Positions 11,492 to 15,867 of a stretch of DNA of 64,000 bases are shown piece after piece. Location of the stretch: the NCBI RefSeq assembly GCF_009708215.1, contig NZ_CP046175.1, positions 3,596,001 through 3,660,000 of the forward strand, given 5' to 3'. Within the stretch, counting starts at the first letter, position 1. Each line of letters begins with the position of its first letter. The stretch is from Occultella kanbiaonis. GTDB lineage: Bacteria > Actinomycetota > Actinomycetes > Actinomycetales > Beutenbergiaceae. The notes beneath the pieces are model-generated. The model saw only the letters and a list, made by a program, of their open reading frames with translations, searched no databases and had not been told where the DNA came from. The position numbers were made by a program, and so were the translations under genes.

Positions 11492-12541
11492 TCAGGCTTG
11501 CGGCACCGGCACCGGAACCGGCACCGGTGCCGTCCGGCCCGCACGCGCCGCCTCGACCGCCGCCGCAGTGTCCTGCGCCACCAGGGCGGCGTTGATCTGC
11601 GCACCGGCCCGCATCCCGGCCGCGGCCGCCGTGATCACCTGCGTGCTCACATCGGCGACGTTCCCGGCCGCCCAGATCCCCGGCACCGACGTCTCGCCCT
11701 TGCCGTCGGTGGGCAGGTAGGTCCCGAACAGGGTCTCGCCCATTTGGAACTCCTCCGCTTGCAGCCCCAGACCCTCGAGGGGACCGACCGGCGCGAACAC
11801 CCGGGTCTGCACGGCCAGGGCCGACCTTGGCACGAACGCGCCGGACGCCAACCGGACCCCGGTGAGCCGGTCGTCGGCGCTCTCCACCGCTGCGACGGCG
11901 CCGTCGACGACCGCGATTCCCCGCGCGGTCAGCTGCTCCCACTCGGTCTCGCTCGGCTCGAGCACGTCGTTGAGGAACAGCGTCACGTCCGCGCTCCACT
12001 GCCGCAGCAGCAGCACCTGGTGCATCGCCATCGGCGAGGACGCGAGGACCCCGATCGGGAGATCCCGGACCTCCCAGCCGTGGCAGTACGGGCAGTGCAG
12101 CACGTCCCGACCGAAGCGCTCCGCCAGGCCTGGGACGTCCGGCAGCTCATCGCGGGCACCGGACGCGAGGAGCACGTGCCGGGCTCCGGTGCTACGGCCG
12201 TCGGCCAGAGTGATCTCGAAGCCGTCCGTCTCGGCCCGCCCGACGGCGGTGACGACCCCGGCGGTGATCTCGCCGCCGTAGCCGCGCACCTCGGCGCGGC
12301 CGATGGCCAACAGGTCACCGGGCGGTGTGCCCTCCCGGCCGAGGTAGTTGTGGACGCCGTCCGCGGGCGTGTTGCGCGGTTGCCCGGCGTCCACGACGAG
12401 GACGCTGCGACGAGCGCGGGACAGGGTCAGAGCGGCGCTCAGACCCGCGGCCGCGCCGCCGATCACCACCACGTCGTAGCCCCCGCGCAGTCCGGGCTCG
12501 TCGGGGTTCGTGCCGGGCATCGGGTTCGAGTTCGTCTGCAT
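11492..12541 (-). CDS. Thioredoxin-reductase-like FAD/NAD(P) oxidoreductase
   Basis: A 349-aa flavoprotein of the thioredoxin reductase class. The FAD-binding fingerprint DVVVIGGAAAGLSAALTL is near residues 23-40, the redox motif CPYC near residues 150-153, and the C-terminal FAD motif GIWAAGNVAD near residues 293-302. It probably reduces a disulfide or low-molecular thiol partner, but no thioredoxin gene is adjacent. ATG 12541 follows an AGGAG about 6 nt upstream. The last residues form a PVPVPVPVPQA tail encoded by GGCACC-type hexamer repeats, beyond the usual end of the family. It lies back to back with an XRE-cupin regulator, a frequent arrangement in actinobacteria. Confidence 0.9.
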   Translation of the reverse strand: MQTNSNPMPGTNPDEPGLRGGYDVVVIGGAAAGLSAALTLSRARRSVLVVDAGQPRNTPADGVHNYLGREGTPPGDLLAIGRAEVRGYGGEITAGVVTAVGRAETDGFEITLADGRSTGARHVLLASGARDELPDVPGLAERFGRDVLHCPYCHGWEVRDLPIGVLASSPMAMHQVLLLRQWSADVTLFLNDVLEPSETEWEQLTARGIAVVDGAVAAVESADDRLTGVRLASGAFVPRSALAVQTRVFAPVGPLEGLGLQAEEFQMGETLFGTYLPTDGKGETSVPGIWAAGNVADVSTQVITAAAAGMRAGAQINAALVAQDTAAAVEAARAGRTAPVPVPVPVPQA

Positions 12542-12626
12542 GAAGGCTCCTGGGGTCGGTAGACCGGAACAGCCGGCACTGTTGAGAATTGGTCTCGTTA
12601 GTAGTTCACACCACCCCGCCGCGAGC

Positions 12627-12653
12627 GGCAACGATCTTTGCCGGTCTGGCAAA
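12627..12653. promoter_or_regulatory. Overlapping inverted repeats, likely operator of the XRE-cupin regulator
   Basis: GGCAA (12627-12631), TTTGCC (12637-12642) and GGCAAA (12648-12653) make two overlapping inverted repeats. The second, TTTGCC-N5-GGCAAA, is perfect and ends 8 bp before the regulator's ATG. The position between the divergent flavoprotein and regulator genes suggests control of both by the XRE protein. Confidence 0.5.
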
Positions 12654-12661
12654 CTCGTCCC

Positions 12662-13270
12662 ATGACGACCACAGACCAAGCGAGCGAGCTCGGCGACGTG
12701 CTGGACGCCGTCGGCCCGCGGTTGCGCTCCCTGCGTACCCGACGCGGCACCAGCCTGACCGAGCTGTCGCAGACCACCGGAATCTCGGTGAGCACCCTGT
12801 CCCGCCTGGAGACCGGGCAGCGGCGCCCGACGCTGGAGCTCCTGCTGCCGCTCGCCCGCGCCTATCAGGTGACCCTCGACGACCTCGTCGGCGCACCCGA
12901 GACCGCGGACCCGCGCGTCCACATCCGGCCCGTCGTCCACCACGGTGTGGCGCACGTGCCGCTCACCAGGCGGGTCGGCGGTCAGCTCGCGGCGAAACTG
13001 ATCCTGCCGCCGGTCGACGTCGTCACGCCGCCGGACCTGCAGACCCATGAGGGTTACGAGTGGCTGTACGTGCTGAGCGGGCGGCTTCGGCTGATCCTCG
13101 GCGAGCACGACGTGGTGCTGACCGAGGGTGAGGTGGCCGAGTTCAACTGCCGGACCACCCCGCACTGGTTCGGCAACCCCGGCCCGGGACCGACGGAGCT
13201 GCTGAGCATCTTCGGACCGCAGGGGGAACGGATCCACGTGCGGGCTGCCCCCAAGCGTAGACAGGGTTAG
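12662..13270 (+). CDS. XRE-family transcriptional regulator with C-terminal cupin domain
   Basis: A 202-aa regulator. Residues ~20-75 form a helix-turn-helix of the XRE type (SLTELSQTTGISVSTLSRLE is the recognition region). Residues ~115-195 form a cupin barrel (HEGYEWLYVLSGRLRLILGE then GEVAEFNCRTTPHWFGN) that would bind a small ligand. It probably controls the divergent flavoprotein gene and itself through the inverted repeats at 12627-12653. ATG 12662 was chosen over the upstream in-frame GTG because it begins the family-like N terminus. Confidence 0.92.
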   Translation: MTTTDQASELGDVLDAVGPRLRSLRTRRGTSLTELSQTTGISVSTLSRLETGQRRPTLELLLPLARAYQVTLDDLVGAPETADPRVHIRPVVHHGVAHVPLTRRVGGQLAAKLILPPVDVVTPPDLQTHEGYEWLYVLSGRLRLILGEHDVVLTEGEVAEFNCRTTPHWFGNPGPGPTELLSIFGPQGERIHVRAAPKRRQG

Positions 13271-13366
13271 GTGTCTCGTCCGGCTGCGTAGAATCGTGGC
13301 TCCTGTGCCCGTCCGTGACACCTGCGCGCACACCGACGGTTTCCCGTTCGACCGAAGGACTGAGCC

Positions 13367-13690
13367 GTGCCGGACCGACCTGAGATCGTCTGCATCTGCG
13401 GCTCCGCCAGGTTCGTGGCCGAGATGAGTGCGGCGAACCGTGCTCTGACCCTCGCAGGTGTCATCGTCGTCTCGCCAGCCGTCTTCCTGCGGCCCGAGGG
13501 TCAGGAGACGGACGAGTTGATCACCAACGAGCAGAAGACCGCGCTGGGCGCCCTCCACCTGCGCAAGATCGACCTGGCTGACCGGGTTCTGGTCGTCAAC
13601 CCAGGTGGGTACCTCGGCGAGTCCACGAGCAGGGAGATCGCCTATGCCCACGCCACCAGCAAGCCGGTCTCTTTCACCGATCCCACCTGA
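13367..13690 (+). CDS. Small nucleoside-deoxyribosyltransferase-like (DUF4406-type) protein
   Basis: A 107-aa protein with a Rossmann-like layout: IVCICGSARF near the start, a middle helix-strand unit, then RKIDLADRVLVVNPGGYLGESTSREIAYAHA. The GxY-x-GxST-x-EI pattern resembles nucleoside 2-deoxyribosyltransferases and DUF4406 proteins. It is shorter than a full deoxyribosyltransferase, so binding of a nucleotide is likelier than a proven reaction. GTG 13367 has GAAGGA 7 nt upstream (13354-13359), and a -10-like TAGAAT lies at 13289-13294. It is convergent with thyX, 9 bp from its end. Confidence 0.7.
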   Translation: MPDRPEIVCICGSARFVAEMSAANRALTLAGVIVVSPAVFLRPEGQETDELITNEQKTALGALHLRKIDLADRVLVVNPGGYLGESTSREIAYAHATSKPVSFTDPT

Positions 13691-13699
13691 CCGGTTCGT

Positions 13700-14428
13700 T
13701 CAGGGAGCGACCCGGCCGTTCTCGTTGAAGGCCTCGTGGGTGAGCGGCATGAGGCCGGCCCAGAAGGCTTCCATCTTCTCCGCCACCATCTCGATCTCAC
13801 GCTGTGGGAACGACGGGAATCGGCTGCCCTCGTTCTTCGTGCGCAGGGAGACGAAGTTCATGAGCGCGCGGGCGTTCATCGTCACGTACATCGAGGAGTA
13901 GATCGTGAGCGGCAGGACGATGCGAGCGACCTCGCGGGCGACACCGGCGTCCAGCATCCGCTGGTAGGAGCCGAAGGCCTCCGTGCAGACGGCGCGAACC
14001 TCGGCGGAGACCAGGTCCGTCTGCTCGGGGGTCCCGGGCAGGAAGTCGTAGGCACCGGCCTTGCCCACCTGCACGAGGTTGCGCTCGGGGCCGGGCACGT
14101 AGAAGACCGGGTTGAGCTCCCGGTACCGACCGCTCTCCTCGTTGTAGGAGGCGATGCGGTGCCGCATGAACTCGCGGAAGACGAAGATCGGCGCCTGCAC
14201 GTAGAACGTCATCGAGTTGTGCTCGAACGGCGACCCGTGACGGTCGCGCATGAGGTAGTTGATCAGGCCCTTCGAGCGGGAGGCGTCGAGGCTCTCGTCC
14301 TGGGCGGCCCCGAGGGTCTTCTCGCCCTGCGTCGACACCCTGGCGGCGAAGAGGACGTCGGAGTCCGACGCGCTGGAGCGGACGAGTTCGACGGACACGT
14401 CGGAACGGAACGAGATCTCTTGAGCCAC
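13700..14428 (-). CDS. thyX: Flavin-dependent thymidylate synthase ThyX
   Basis: A 242-aa FAD-dependent enzyme methylating dUMP to dTMP with methylenetetrahydrofolate and NADPH. The ThyX signature RHR-x7-S is present as RHRIASYNEESGRY near residues 82-95, and the C-terminal SLRTKNEGSRFPSFPQREI region is complete. GTG 14428 is preferred: a TATCGT box (14436-14441) lies 7 nt upstream, fitting a leaderless transcript, and the family length is met. It is divergent from the AlaRS-like locus; no dihydrodipicolinate genes are attached, unlike the thyX locus of many relatives. Confidence 0.96.
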   Translation of the reverse strand: MAQEISFRSDVSVELVRSSASDSDVLFAARVSTQGEKTLGAAQDESLDASRSKGLINYLMRDRHGSPFEHNSMTFYVQAPIFVFREFMRHRIASYNEESGRYRELNPVFYVPGPERNLVQVGKAGAYDFLPGTPEQTDLVSAEVRAVCTEAFGSYQRMLDAGVAREVARIVLPLTIYSSMYVTMNARALMNFVSLRTKNEGSRFPSFPQREIEMVAEKMEAFWAGLMPLTHEAFNENGRVAP

Positions 14429-14493
14429 GGCCCTCACGATAGCGAGCACGCCGCGCCCCAGAAATGGGCGCGCCGACGCCGGGGCCGTTCCGG

Positions 14494-14499
14494 TACGCT
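14494..14499 (+). promoter_or_regulatory. -10 box of the Ala-leader / short AlaRS transcript
   Basis: TACGCT ends 7 nt before the ATG of the leader peptide at 14507. This spacing puts the transcription start at, or one base from, the ATG, so the leader would be translated from a leaderless mRNA. No clear -35 box is seen. Confidence 0.55.
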
Positions 14500-14506
14500 T
14501 GACGAC

Positions 14507-14572
14507 ATGCACCAGATGTCTCGCTTCGCCGCGGCCGCCCGAGCTCCTCGCTCGCCGGCTGCCGCTGCCTGA
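14507..14572 (+). CDS. Alanine-rich leader peptide (putative attenuator peptide)
   Basis: A 21-codon reading frame in front of the short AlaRS gene. Nine of 21 codons are Ala: four in a row at 14528-14539 (RFAAAAR), one at 14543 and four in a row at 14558-14569 just before TGA. A -10 box sits 7 nt upstream and a very stable hairpin starts 11 nt after the stop. This is the layout of amino-acid attenuators: scarcity of charged tRNA-Ala would stall the ribosome in the leader. The downstream gene being an alanyl-tRNA-synthetase relative makes chance unlikely. Translation has not been shown. Confidence 0.7.
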   Translation: MHQMSRFAAAARAPRSPAAAA

Positions 14573-14583
14573 CATCCCCTTCC

Positions 14584-14614
14584 ACACCGGCGACCGGAAA
14601 CGGTCAGCCGGTGT
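14584..14614 (+). promoter_or_regulatory. Attenuator hairpin with GAAA tetraloop, with alternative pairing
   Basis: ACACCGGC (14584-14591) pairs with GCCGGTGT (14607-14614), and GACCG (14592-14596) pairs with CGGTC (14601-14605) around a GAAA loop; one A (14606) is bulged. This 13-bp stem has no strong T-run after it, as is common in actinobacterial terminators. Leader bases 14552-14558 (TCGCCGG) are an exact complement of 14587-14593 (CCGGCGA) in the 5' arm. A ribosome stalled on the first Ala cluster would leave them free to form an anti-attenuator; one reaching the stop would tend to mask them. Confidence 0.6.
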
Positions 14615-14647
14615 TGTGCTGTTCGCACCTGGCCAGCTGGTCTTTCC

Positions 14648-14667
14648 GGTCCTCCCCCGAAAGGACC
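14648..14667 (+). promoter_or_regulatory. Hairpin covering the ribosome binding site of the short AlaRS gene
   Basis: GGTCCT (14648-14653) and AGGACC (14662-14667) form a 6-bp stem with an 8-nt loop. The AAGGA ribosome binding site of the TTG start at 14674 lies at 14661-14665, inside the 3' arm, so the hairpin could hold translation low until opened. Confidence 0.4.
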
Positions 14668-14673
14668 ACTCCG

Positions 14674-15867
14674 TTGAGCCTCGAGAAGACCTTCATCGAC
14701 TACTTCGTCCAGCGCGGTCACATCCCGACCACGGGATCCTCGCTGATCCCGCGACCCGGCGACCCCGTCCTCTTCACCGCCGCGGGCATGCATCCGCTGA
14801 CTCCGTTCCTGGAGGGTGAGCCGCACCCACTCGGGCGACGGCTCGTCGGGGTCCAGCGGTGCCTGCGGACCACCGACCTCGATGAGGTCGGCGATCCGAC
14901 CCATCTCACGGTGTTCGAGATGCTCGGCTCCTGGTCCCTCGGCGACTACGGCAGCGAGCAGAGCCTGCGGTGGGGATACGAGTTCCTCCATGACGTGCTC
15001 GGCGTCGACCCGGTGCGGATGCATGTCACCGTCTTCGGTGGCGACGACCGGGTCGAGGCGGACCTGGAGTCGCTGCGCACCTGGCAAGATCTCGGACTCC
15101 CGATCGAGCTGACCACCGAGGACAACTGGTGGTCGAACGGCCCGACCGGTCCGTGCGGCCCGGACTCGGAGATCTTCCTGTGGACCGGAGATGGCTCACC
15201 GGAGGGCACGCCGACCACGGACGACCGCTGGATCGAGGTGTGGAACCACGTCATGGTGCGCTTCCGCCAGCAGGAGGACGGGTCACTGGAACCGCTGCCG
15301 CAGCACAACATCGACACCGGCCTCGGCCTGGAGCGGCTCAGCATGCTGCTCGAGGGCAAGCGGTCCGTCTACGAGACCGACCGGTTCGAGCCATGGATGC
15401 GGCTCCTACCCGAGCTCTGGAAGCTGGACGAGGAGTCCGAACGGATCGTGATCGACCACCTGCGTTCGAGCATCGTCATCATCGGCGACGGCGTCCGACC
15501 GTCGAACACCGGTCGCGGCTACGTGCTGCGCCGGCTGATCCGGCGGGTGCTGACCCTGCTGTGGCGCTTCGATCAGTCCAGGACGCTCGTCGATCTGCCG
15601 GTGGAGGTGGTCGAGCACACGCTGCGACACTTCCACCAGGATGAGGGCGTCACGCTGGTGCAGCAGGTGCTCCTCGACGAGGAGGTCCGGTTCACCGACC
15701 TGCTCCAGCGGGGCCGGCGGATCCTCGGCAGCGACCGGTTCCGGAAGACGCTCGACCAACACGACTTCGAGTATCTGCACCAGACCCACGGTCTCCCGCG
15801 CGAACTCGTCCAGTCGCTGATCGCGCAGGAGAGTGGGGGGTCGAGCGCTCCCCTCTCGCTCACCTAG
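14674..15867 (+). CDS. Short alanyl-tRNA synthetase paralogue (catalytic and tRNA-recognition part only)
   Basis: A 397-aa relative of AlaRS. The class II core is intact: FIDYFVQRGH at the start, FEMLGSWSLGDYG (motif 2 region), EDNWWSNGPTGPCGPDSEI (ATP/Ala pocket) and GLGLERLSMLLEG (motif 3). The tRNA-binding mid-domain is also present (IVIDHLRSSIVIIGDGVRPS, RGYVLRRLIRR, and HGLPRELVQSL at the end). The editing domain and C-Ala domain of a full-length (~870-900 aa) enzyme are absent, as a clean end rather than visible decay. TTG 14674 is chosen from AAGGA 8 nt upstream. A housekeeping alaS must exist elsewhere. The Ala-rich leader suggests induction when charged tRNA-Ala runs low, for example under an AlaRS inhibitor; this is inference. 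Confidence 0.88.
   Translation: MSLEKTFIDYFVQRGHIPTTGSSLIPRPGDPVLFTAAGMHPLTPFLEGEPHPLGRRLVGVQRCLRTTDLDEVGDPTHLTVFEMLGSWSLGDYGSEQSLRWGYEFLHDVLGVDPVRMHVTVFGGDDRVEADLESLRTWQDLGLPIELTTEDNWWSNGPTGPCGPDSEIFLWTGDGSPEGTPTTDDRWIEVWNHVMVRFRQQEDGSLEPLPQHNIDTGLGLERLSMLLEGKRSVYETDRFEPWMRLLPELWKLDEESERIVIDHLRSSIVIIGDGVRPSNTGRGYVLRRLIRRVLTLLWRFDQSRTLVDLPVEVVEHTLRHFHQDEGVTLVQQVLLDEEVRFTDLLQRGRRILGSDRFRKTLDQHDFEYLHQTHGLPRELVQSLIAQESGGSSAPLSLT

Follow-up and report, generated by a model that had tools for sequence, protein, structure and literature searches.

The locus described here raises the question of whether a short, alanine-rich reading frame ahead of a gene for a short alanyl-tRNA synthetase (AlaRS) couples expression of that gene to the supply of charged tRNA-Ala. 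It lies in a 64,000-nt stretch of the Occultella kanbiaonis genome, referred to throughout as the window (contig NZ_CP046175.1, positions 3,596,001 to 3,660,000). An initial annotation had proposed a tRNA-Ala attenuator at this site, and the elements on which it drew, namely a TACGCT box, a 7-nt gap, a 21-codon frame with nine Ala codons, an 11-nt gap and a 13-bp hairpin with a GAAA loop, are all present at the coordinates given in Table 1. The downstream gene encodes a mini-AlaRS of the alaS2 type, which matches only the PF01411 core and also solved AlaRS cores; neither an editing domain nor a C-Ala domain was detected by domain matches and alignment. In an alignment its catalytic core matches that of the full-length enzyme, and the protein stops short of the editing domain, a separate full-length AlaRS being encoded elsewhere in the same 5.65-Mb contig. 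The window protein and that of another Occultella locus (L004) carry LHQTHG where most relatives have LHDTHG, at a site which may serve in tRNA-Ala recognition and which we take to be near the AlaRS residue linked to G3:U70 recognition. Neighboring the leader gene (alaL), ThyX is encoded on the minus strand (13700-14428), divergent from the alaL promoter; further genes on that side are a 107-aa ORF with no Pfam match (13367-13690) and an HTH-cupin regulator (12638-13270), which overlaps a long minus-strand ORF (11492-13651).

Table 1. Features of the leader region and of the short AlaRS gene, numbered from the first base of the window.
Feature	Position	Strand	Description and basis
WblC/WhiB7-like box	14461-14466	+	GAAATG, 5 of 6 to GAAAWY; motif and spacing
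Weak -35 element	14470-14475		3 bp after the box; followed by an 18-bp spacer
-10 element	14494-14499	+	TACGCT; 7 nt before leader ATG
Leader peptide gene	14507-14572	+	MHQMSRFAAAARAPRSPAAAA*; ATG at 14507, 21 codons (9 Ala), stop 14570-14572; ORF recurring in relatives, homologous to AlaL of S. lividans
Candidate control codons	14531-14545	+	Conservation in 97 leaders and model-permissive stall positions
Ala codon -3	14531-14533	+	
Ala codon -1	14537-14539	+	
Arg codon 0	14540-14542	+	CGA
Ala codon +1	14543-14545	+	
Strand A of protector helix	14531-14536	+	Partner 14557-14562; A-U/G-C covariation
Small leader hairpin	14541-14553	+	GAGC, 5 nt, GCTC; practically invariant
Strand B	14555-14564	+	CCGGCTGCCG; codons +5 to +8; partner of strand A (protector) or C (antiterminator)
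Terminator-like hairpin C:D	14584-14614	+	GAAA loop, 13 pairs, one bulged A, -24.2 kcal/mol; begins 11 nt past leader stop codon
Strand C	14588-14597	+	CGGCGACCGG; 5' arm of terminator-like hairpin; partner of strand B
Tail after hairpin C:D	14615-14624	+	TGTGCTGTTC; 5 T in 9
Element E	14643-14651	+	TTTCCGGTC; complementary to 14592-14600 in hairpin apex
RBS hairpin	14648-14667	+	GGTCCT...AGGACC; covers AAGGA at 14661-14665
alaS2-type mini-AlaRS	14674-15867	+	397 aa, TTG start at 14674; catalytic and tRNA-recognition core

The same anatomy recurs at all 111 distinct short-AlaRS loci compared, from Occultella, Kribbella, Streptomyces, Streptacidiphilus and two further families, a set that leaves out one locus with a full-length AlaRS (L002) and one duplicate (L006, of L003). 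The leader core RAxxS is present at 111/111 of these loci, seven leaders that escaped the automatic rule having been placed by hand (five with Ser-Thr replacing Ser-Pro, and two lacking TANNNT). An RNA covariance model of the leader (R1) gave hits in 12 of 395 genomes of the class, at one site each; these were exactly the 12 genomes possessing a short AlaRS and every site fell just upstream of the gene, with the caveat that the search filters may lose weak matches and that some of the 12 loci were used in the model. Given this recurrence in relatives, and the exact match between R1 hits and gene-bearing genomes, the leader, hairpin and -10 box are not chance occurrences, and sequence comparison points to a set of elements that is conserved and linked to the gene. 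The gene itself has a patchy spread: it was identified in 4/4 genomes of the genus and was absent from 20 other genomes in the family sample, and it occurs in 66 of 296 genomes in the genus of G080, in 27 of 121 in the family of G220, at one locus only in the order containing G107, and on eight plasmid records. Among named relatives Occultella glacieicola is the nearest, and over the stretch compared it is identical to genome G002 of the same genus. The protein tree groups Occultella with Kribbella in a single clade (support 1.0), which together with the patchy spread suggests that the short AlaRS has been spread by horizontal transfer; gene neighbors differ between genera (nine loci, ORF calls only).

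Conservation of individual codons was counted over 97 unique leaders, with the five Ser-Thr leaders excluded. Consistent with the expectation of the initial annotation that Ala codons would be kept in relatives with the short AlaRS, Ala occupies codons -3 and +1 in all 97 (100%), using all four synonymous codons at -3, and codon -1 in 91 (95%), the remainder carrying Val (5) or Gly (1); Val is found at this position in Kribbella leaders. Codon 0 is the Arg codon CGA in 97/97, and codon +4 is Ser in 97/97 through four synonymous codons. The 5' half of the leader and the second Ala run are variable across relatives. Codons -3, -1 and +1 alone look like sensor codons; as a sensor the second Ala run was rejected, since it varies to Val or Asp and a modelled stall there yields no antiterminator, and it is instead the strand that pairs to form the antiterminator. 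Part of the conservation of Ala -3 and +1 could be structural, because their GC also takes part in pairing.

Strands A to D define mutually exclusive helices. In the protector helix, codons -3 and -2 (strand A) are paired with codons +5 to +7, a part of strand B. Codon -2 at its first base and codon +6 at its second switch together from A-U to G-C, so that Thr/Ala and Val/Ala swaps in the peptide are coupled. Across the protector, the small leader hairpin and C:D, alignment A1 contains 44 cells in which both sides change, compared with 14.7 after shuffling (relatedness uncorrected), a number reached by 0/500 shuffles, and slid registers give only 2-22. The small hairpin, being practically invariant, provides no covariation either way. 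The antiterminator B:C pairs in 96% of cells, includes five both-side cells (relatedness uncorrected), and carries an A-C mismatch in Occultella and Kribbella. Compensatory stem changes of the kind anticipated at the outset are thus found in the protector and in C:D, and to a limited extent in the antiterminator; as read from the alignment, covariation supports the first two helices and the third less strongly. The exact complement between 14552-14558 and 14587-14593 on which the initial annotation based its exclusive structures does exist. Mutual exclusion as such is supported, but the proposed register was rejected, since it shows no both-side changes and a pairing shifted three bases downstream (14555-14564 with 14588-14597) fits better. 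Folding of the leader-to-RBS RNA gave a z-score of -6.0 against shuffled sequences, with 0/200 as good. GC-rich sequence would readily yield Ala codons and hairpins, such that the leader might be a mere unstructured uORF in a high-GC 5' UTR with incidental hairpins; conservation, covariation, gene linkage and the fold z-score all contradict this reading, which we regard as highly improbable.

We also modelled the consequences of ribosome stalling, with the ribosome assumed to cover about 16 nt from the P site. The modelled antiterminator probability was 0.85-0.95 with the A-site codon at -6 to +1, 0.43 at -7, at most 0.35 at +2 and +3, and 0 from +4 on; under this model, the conserved Ala codons fall at positions where a stalled ribosome would free the antiterminator strand. 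For RNA ending before strand D, a ribosome stalled at +1 brings B:C above 0.5 in the model at 111/111 loci; without a ribosome this happens at 0/111. With D present, C:D wins at equilibrium in most loci, the window included, even when the ribosome is stalled, so that the switch would have to work kinetically, in the manner of classical attenuators. The core idea of a tRNA-Ala attenuator thus draws support from conserved Ala codons at stall positions, from mutually exclusive helices and from the leader's obligate association with the gene, and we consider it probable that alaL is a ribosome-mediated attenuator of the auxiliary mini-AlaRS of these soil actinobacteria, situated behind a WblC/WhiB7-like promoter. 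From these comparisons we infer ribosome stalling, termination and an alanine signal, which might operate as follows. Transcription would begin at or near the leader ATG, and with no ribosome on the transcript A and B would pair and hairpin C:D would form. When Ala-tRNA is plentiful, the ribosome would reach the stop codon and cover B, again allowing C:D to form and keeping expression low. If Ala-tRNA runs short, the ribosome would wait at Ala codon -3, -1 or +1, covering A and freeing B; free B could then pair with C before D is made, blocking C:D and letting the polymerase enter alaS2.

The terminator step of this attenuator was examined through the tails that follow the hairpin. These nine-base tails contain a mean of 3.1 T versus 1.5 expected from the downstream leader (best 7), the mean being approximate as the automatic hairpin finder picked another hairpin in a few loci. 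A T tract is clear in several relatives (Kribbella and others) and weak in the window copy, which was not scored as a terminator by a terminator scan; many Streptomyces copies have none. Given the weak tract in the window, the relatives support the terminator step better than the window copy does, and it is from them that we infer termination at C:D. At two loci (L061 and L063) the hairpin has a different loop and the tail is still T-rich, which suggests that terminator function outlives the GAAA loop.

Downstream of the hairpin, element E is complementary to the apex of the hairpin at almost every locus, variant apices (L032, L062, L074 and L078-L080) being accompanied by apparent matching changes, and fits its own apex better than swapped ones (0/5000 permutations, relatedness uncorrected). 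Some of this complementarity comes cheaply because the apex is palindromic, and at L010 and L066 element E fits its own apex no better than those of others. A Shine-Dalgarno (SD) sequence precedes the short AlaRS gene in 106/107 cases, and the second hairpin that had been noted over the ribosome binding site (RBS) of this gene was confirmed. Apex:E complementarity across families, with its matching changes and own-versus-swapped excess, the near-universal SD and the many copies devoid of a T tract would all suit a translational mechanism, in which a stalled ribosome alters the pairing of apex, element E and RBS hairpin to expose or hide the RBS, with no termination involved. However, the T tracts of Kribbella and others identify the hairpin as a terminator in those loci, the palindromic apex and the exceptions L010 and L066 count against a specific apex:E match, and folding gives practically the same SD exposure for each ribosome state (0.29, 0.29 and 0.30), a result on which SD exposure was rejected as a readout. 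Overall, purely translational control appears rather unlikely. Element E and the RBS hairpin could provide an extra layer of control at the RBS, and more specifically a two-level switch can be envisaged in which one hairpin acts as terminator and, through apex:E pairing, also controls access to the RBS, a proposal that we put forward tentatively and hold to be doubtful. Were it true, an antibiotic-stress promoter and alanine-gated transcription and translation would be stacked on a single editing-less AlaRS, made only when translation is failing.

At the promoter, TANNNT lies 6-8 nt ahead of the leader start in 106/110 unique upstream sequences and in none at shifted offsets, and an SD-like sequence precedes the leader in only 3/110. 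The 7 nt between -10 element and leader ATG in the window imply a leaderless transcript, with a predicted start at or near that ATG. At least five of six bases of GAAAWY were matched 31-34 nt before the -10 element at 87/110 loci (39 perfectly), compared with 0-3% at nearly all other offsets; a box search at the promoters of the Occultella relatives L003 and L004 found no WblC-like box. Judging from motif and spacing, most promoters, including that of the window, look to be of the WblC/WhiB7 type. The window genome also encodes a WhiB-family protein (L130; G000:C1:1463494-1463643) with an AT-hook-like RGRGRPRK tail, presumably a feature to be expected of WhiB7; based on the WhiB match and AT-hook, it is a candidate WhiB7/WblC of this genome. 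In PMC7157823, the WblC promoter is defined by a GAAAWY box 3 bp before the -35 element, 16-19 bp spacing and TANNNT, and S. coelicolor alaS2 (SCO7600), which we take to be a probable member of the short AlaRS family, is WblC- and tetracycline-dependent and alaS is not, the reported induction being by tetracycline and not by alanine starvation. Such a promoter and such dependence would also be consistent with a leader that senses ribosome-targeting antibiotics instead of alanine, where drug-slowed or stalled ribosomes antiterminate a gene of the resistance regulon (compare ARE-ABCF and whiB7/wblC uORFs), and antibiotic-triggered uORF attenuation is known for ARE ABCF genes. Against this stand the three Ala codons conserved at model-permissive positions and the identity of the product as an AlaRS; furthermore, the modelled antiterminator is already down to 0.43 at codon -7, and ribosomes halted on the start codon, as is typical with LSAP drugs, would be expected to favor the default state. 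We therefore view antibiotic sensing as distinctly unlikely.

Attenuation by alanine supply would mean that an Ala leader reported in one line for a single Streptomyces is a conserved switch whose parts can be tested, and would tie this switch to the response that WblC/WhiB7 controls against ribosome-targeting drugs. It also raises the question of why drug-stressed cells would make an AlaRS without a proofreading domain. Among known systems, a T-box riboswitch was rejected, the Rfam T-box model giving no match in 14440-14700 at E up to 1; apart from tRNAs, no Rfam family was found in the window, and none in 14440-14700 at that threshold. The initial annotation held that no Ala leader before an AlaRS relative was well established, a statement overtaken by the 2021 publication, from RNA-seq, of alaL upstream of alaS in S. 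lividans TK24 as a type not described before (PMC8079986). AlaL of S. lividans (MNVIGRNIFATARATSSPVAAA*) is found letter for letter upstream of short AlaRS genes at L050 and L089, and shares the core ARAxxSPxAAA with the window leader; the latter stems from a different order and carries Ala at the two positions occupied by Thr and Val in AlaL. The available part of PMC8079986 names alaL an attenuator without giving alternative structures, conservation or a test. The S. coelicolor alaS2 study (PMC7157823, 2020) describes an auxiliary AlaRS paralogue beside the housekeeping alaS, with a GAAAWY position that agrees with our loci, and mentions no leader or attenuator in its available part. No further reports on alaL, alanine leaders or WblC uORFs were found in the open-access literature, in which alaL is published for one Streptomyces and the combination of wide conservation, switch anatomy and antibiotic-stress-type promoter was not encountered. 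The mini-AlaRS of Tupanvirus likewise lacks editing and C-Ala domains, but is viral and of eukaryotic descent, with no leader described in the available part of PMC10036535. Streptomyces trpS and leuS attenuators (Seliverstov 2005, PMC1262725) are similarly built from a leader peptide, an antiterminator and a terminator ahead of synthetase genes, with Trp or Leu in place of Ala; 'alanine' and 'alaS' are absent from that text. Finally, the auxiliary TrpRS of S. coelicolor (Vecchione and Sello 2010, as cited in PMC4787780) is likewise a spare synthetase under ribosome-mediated transcriptional attenuation, responding to Trp in place of Ala.
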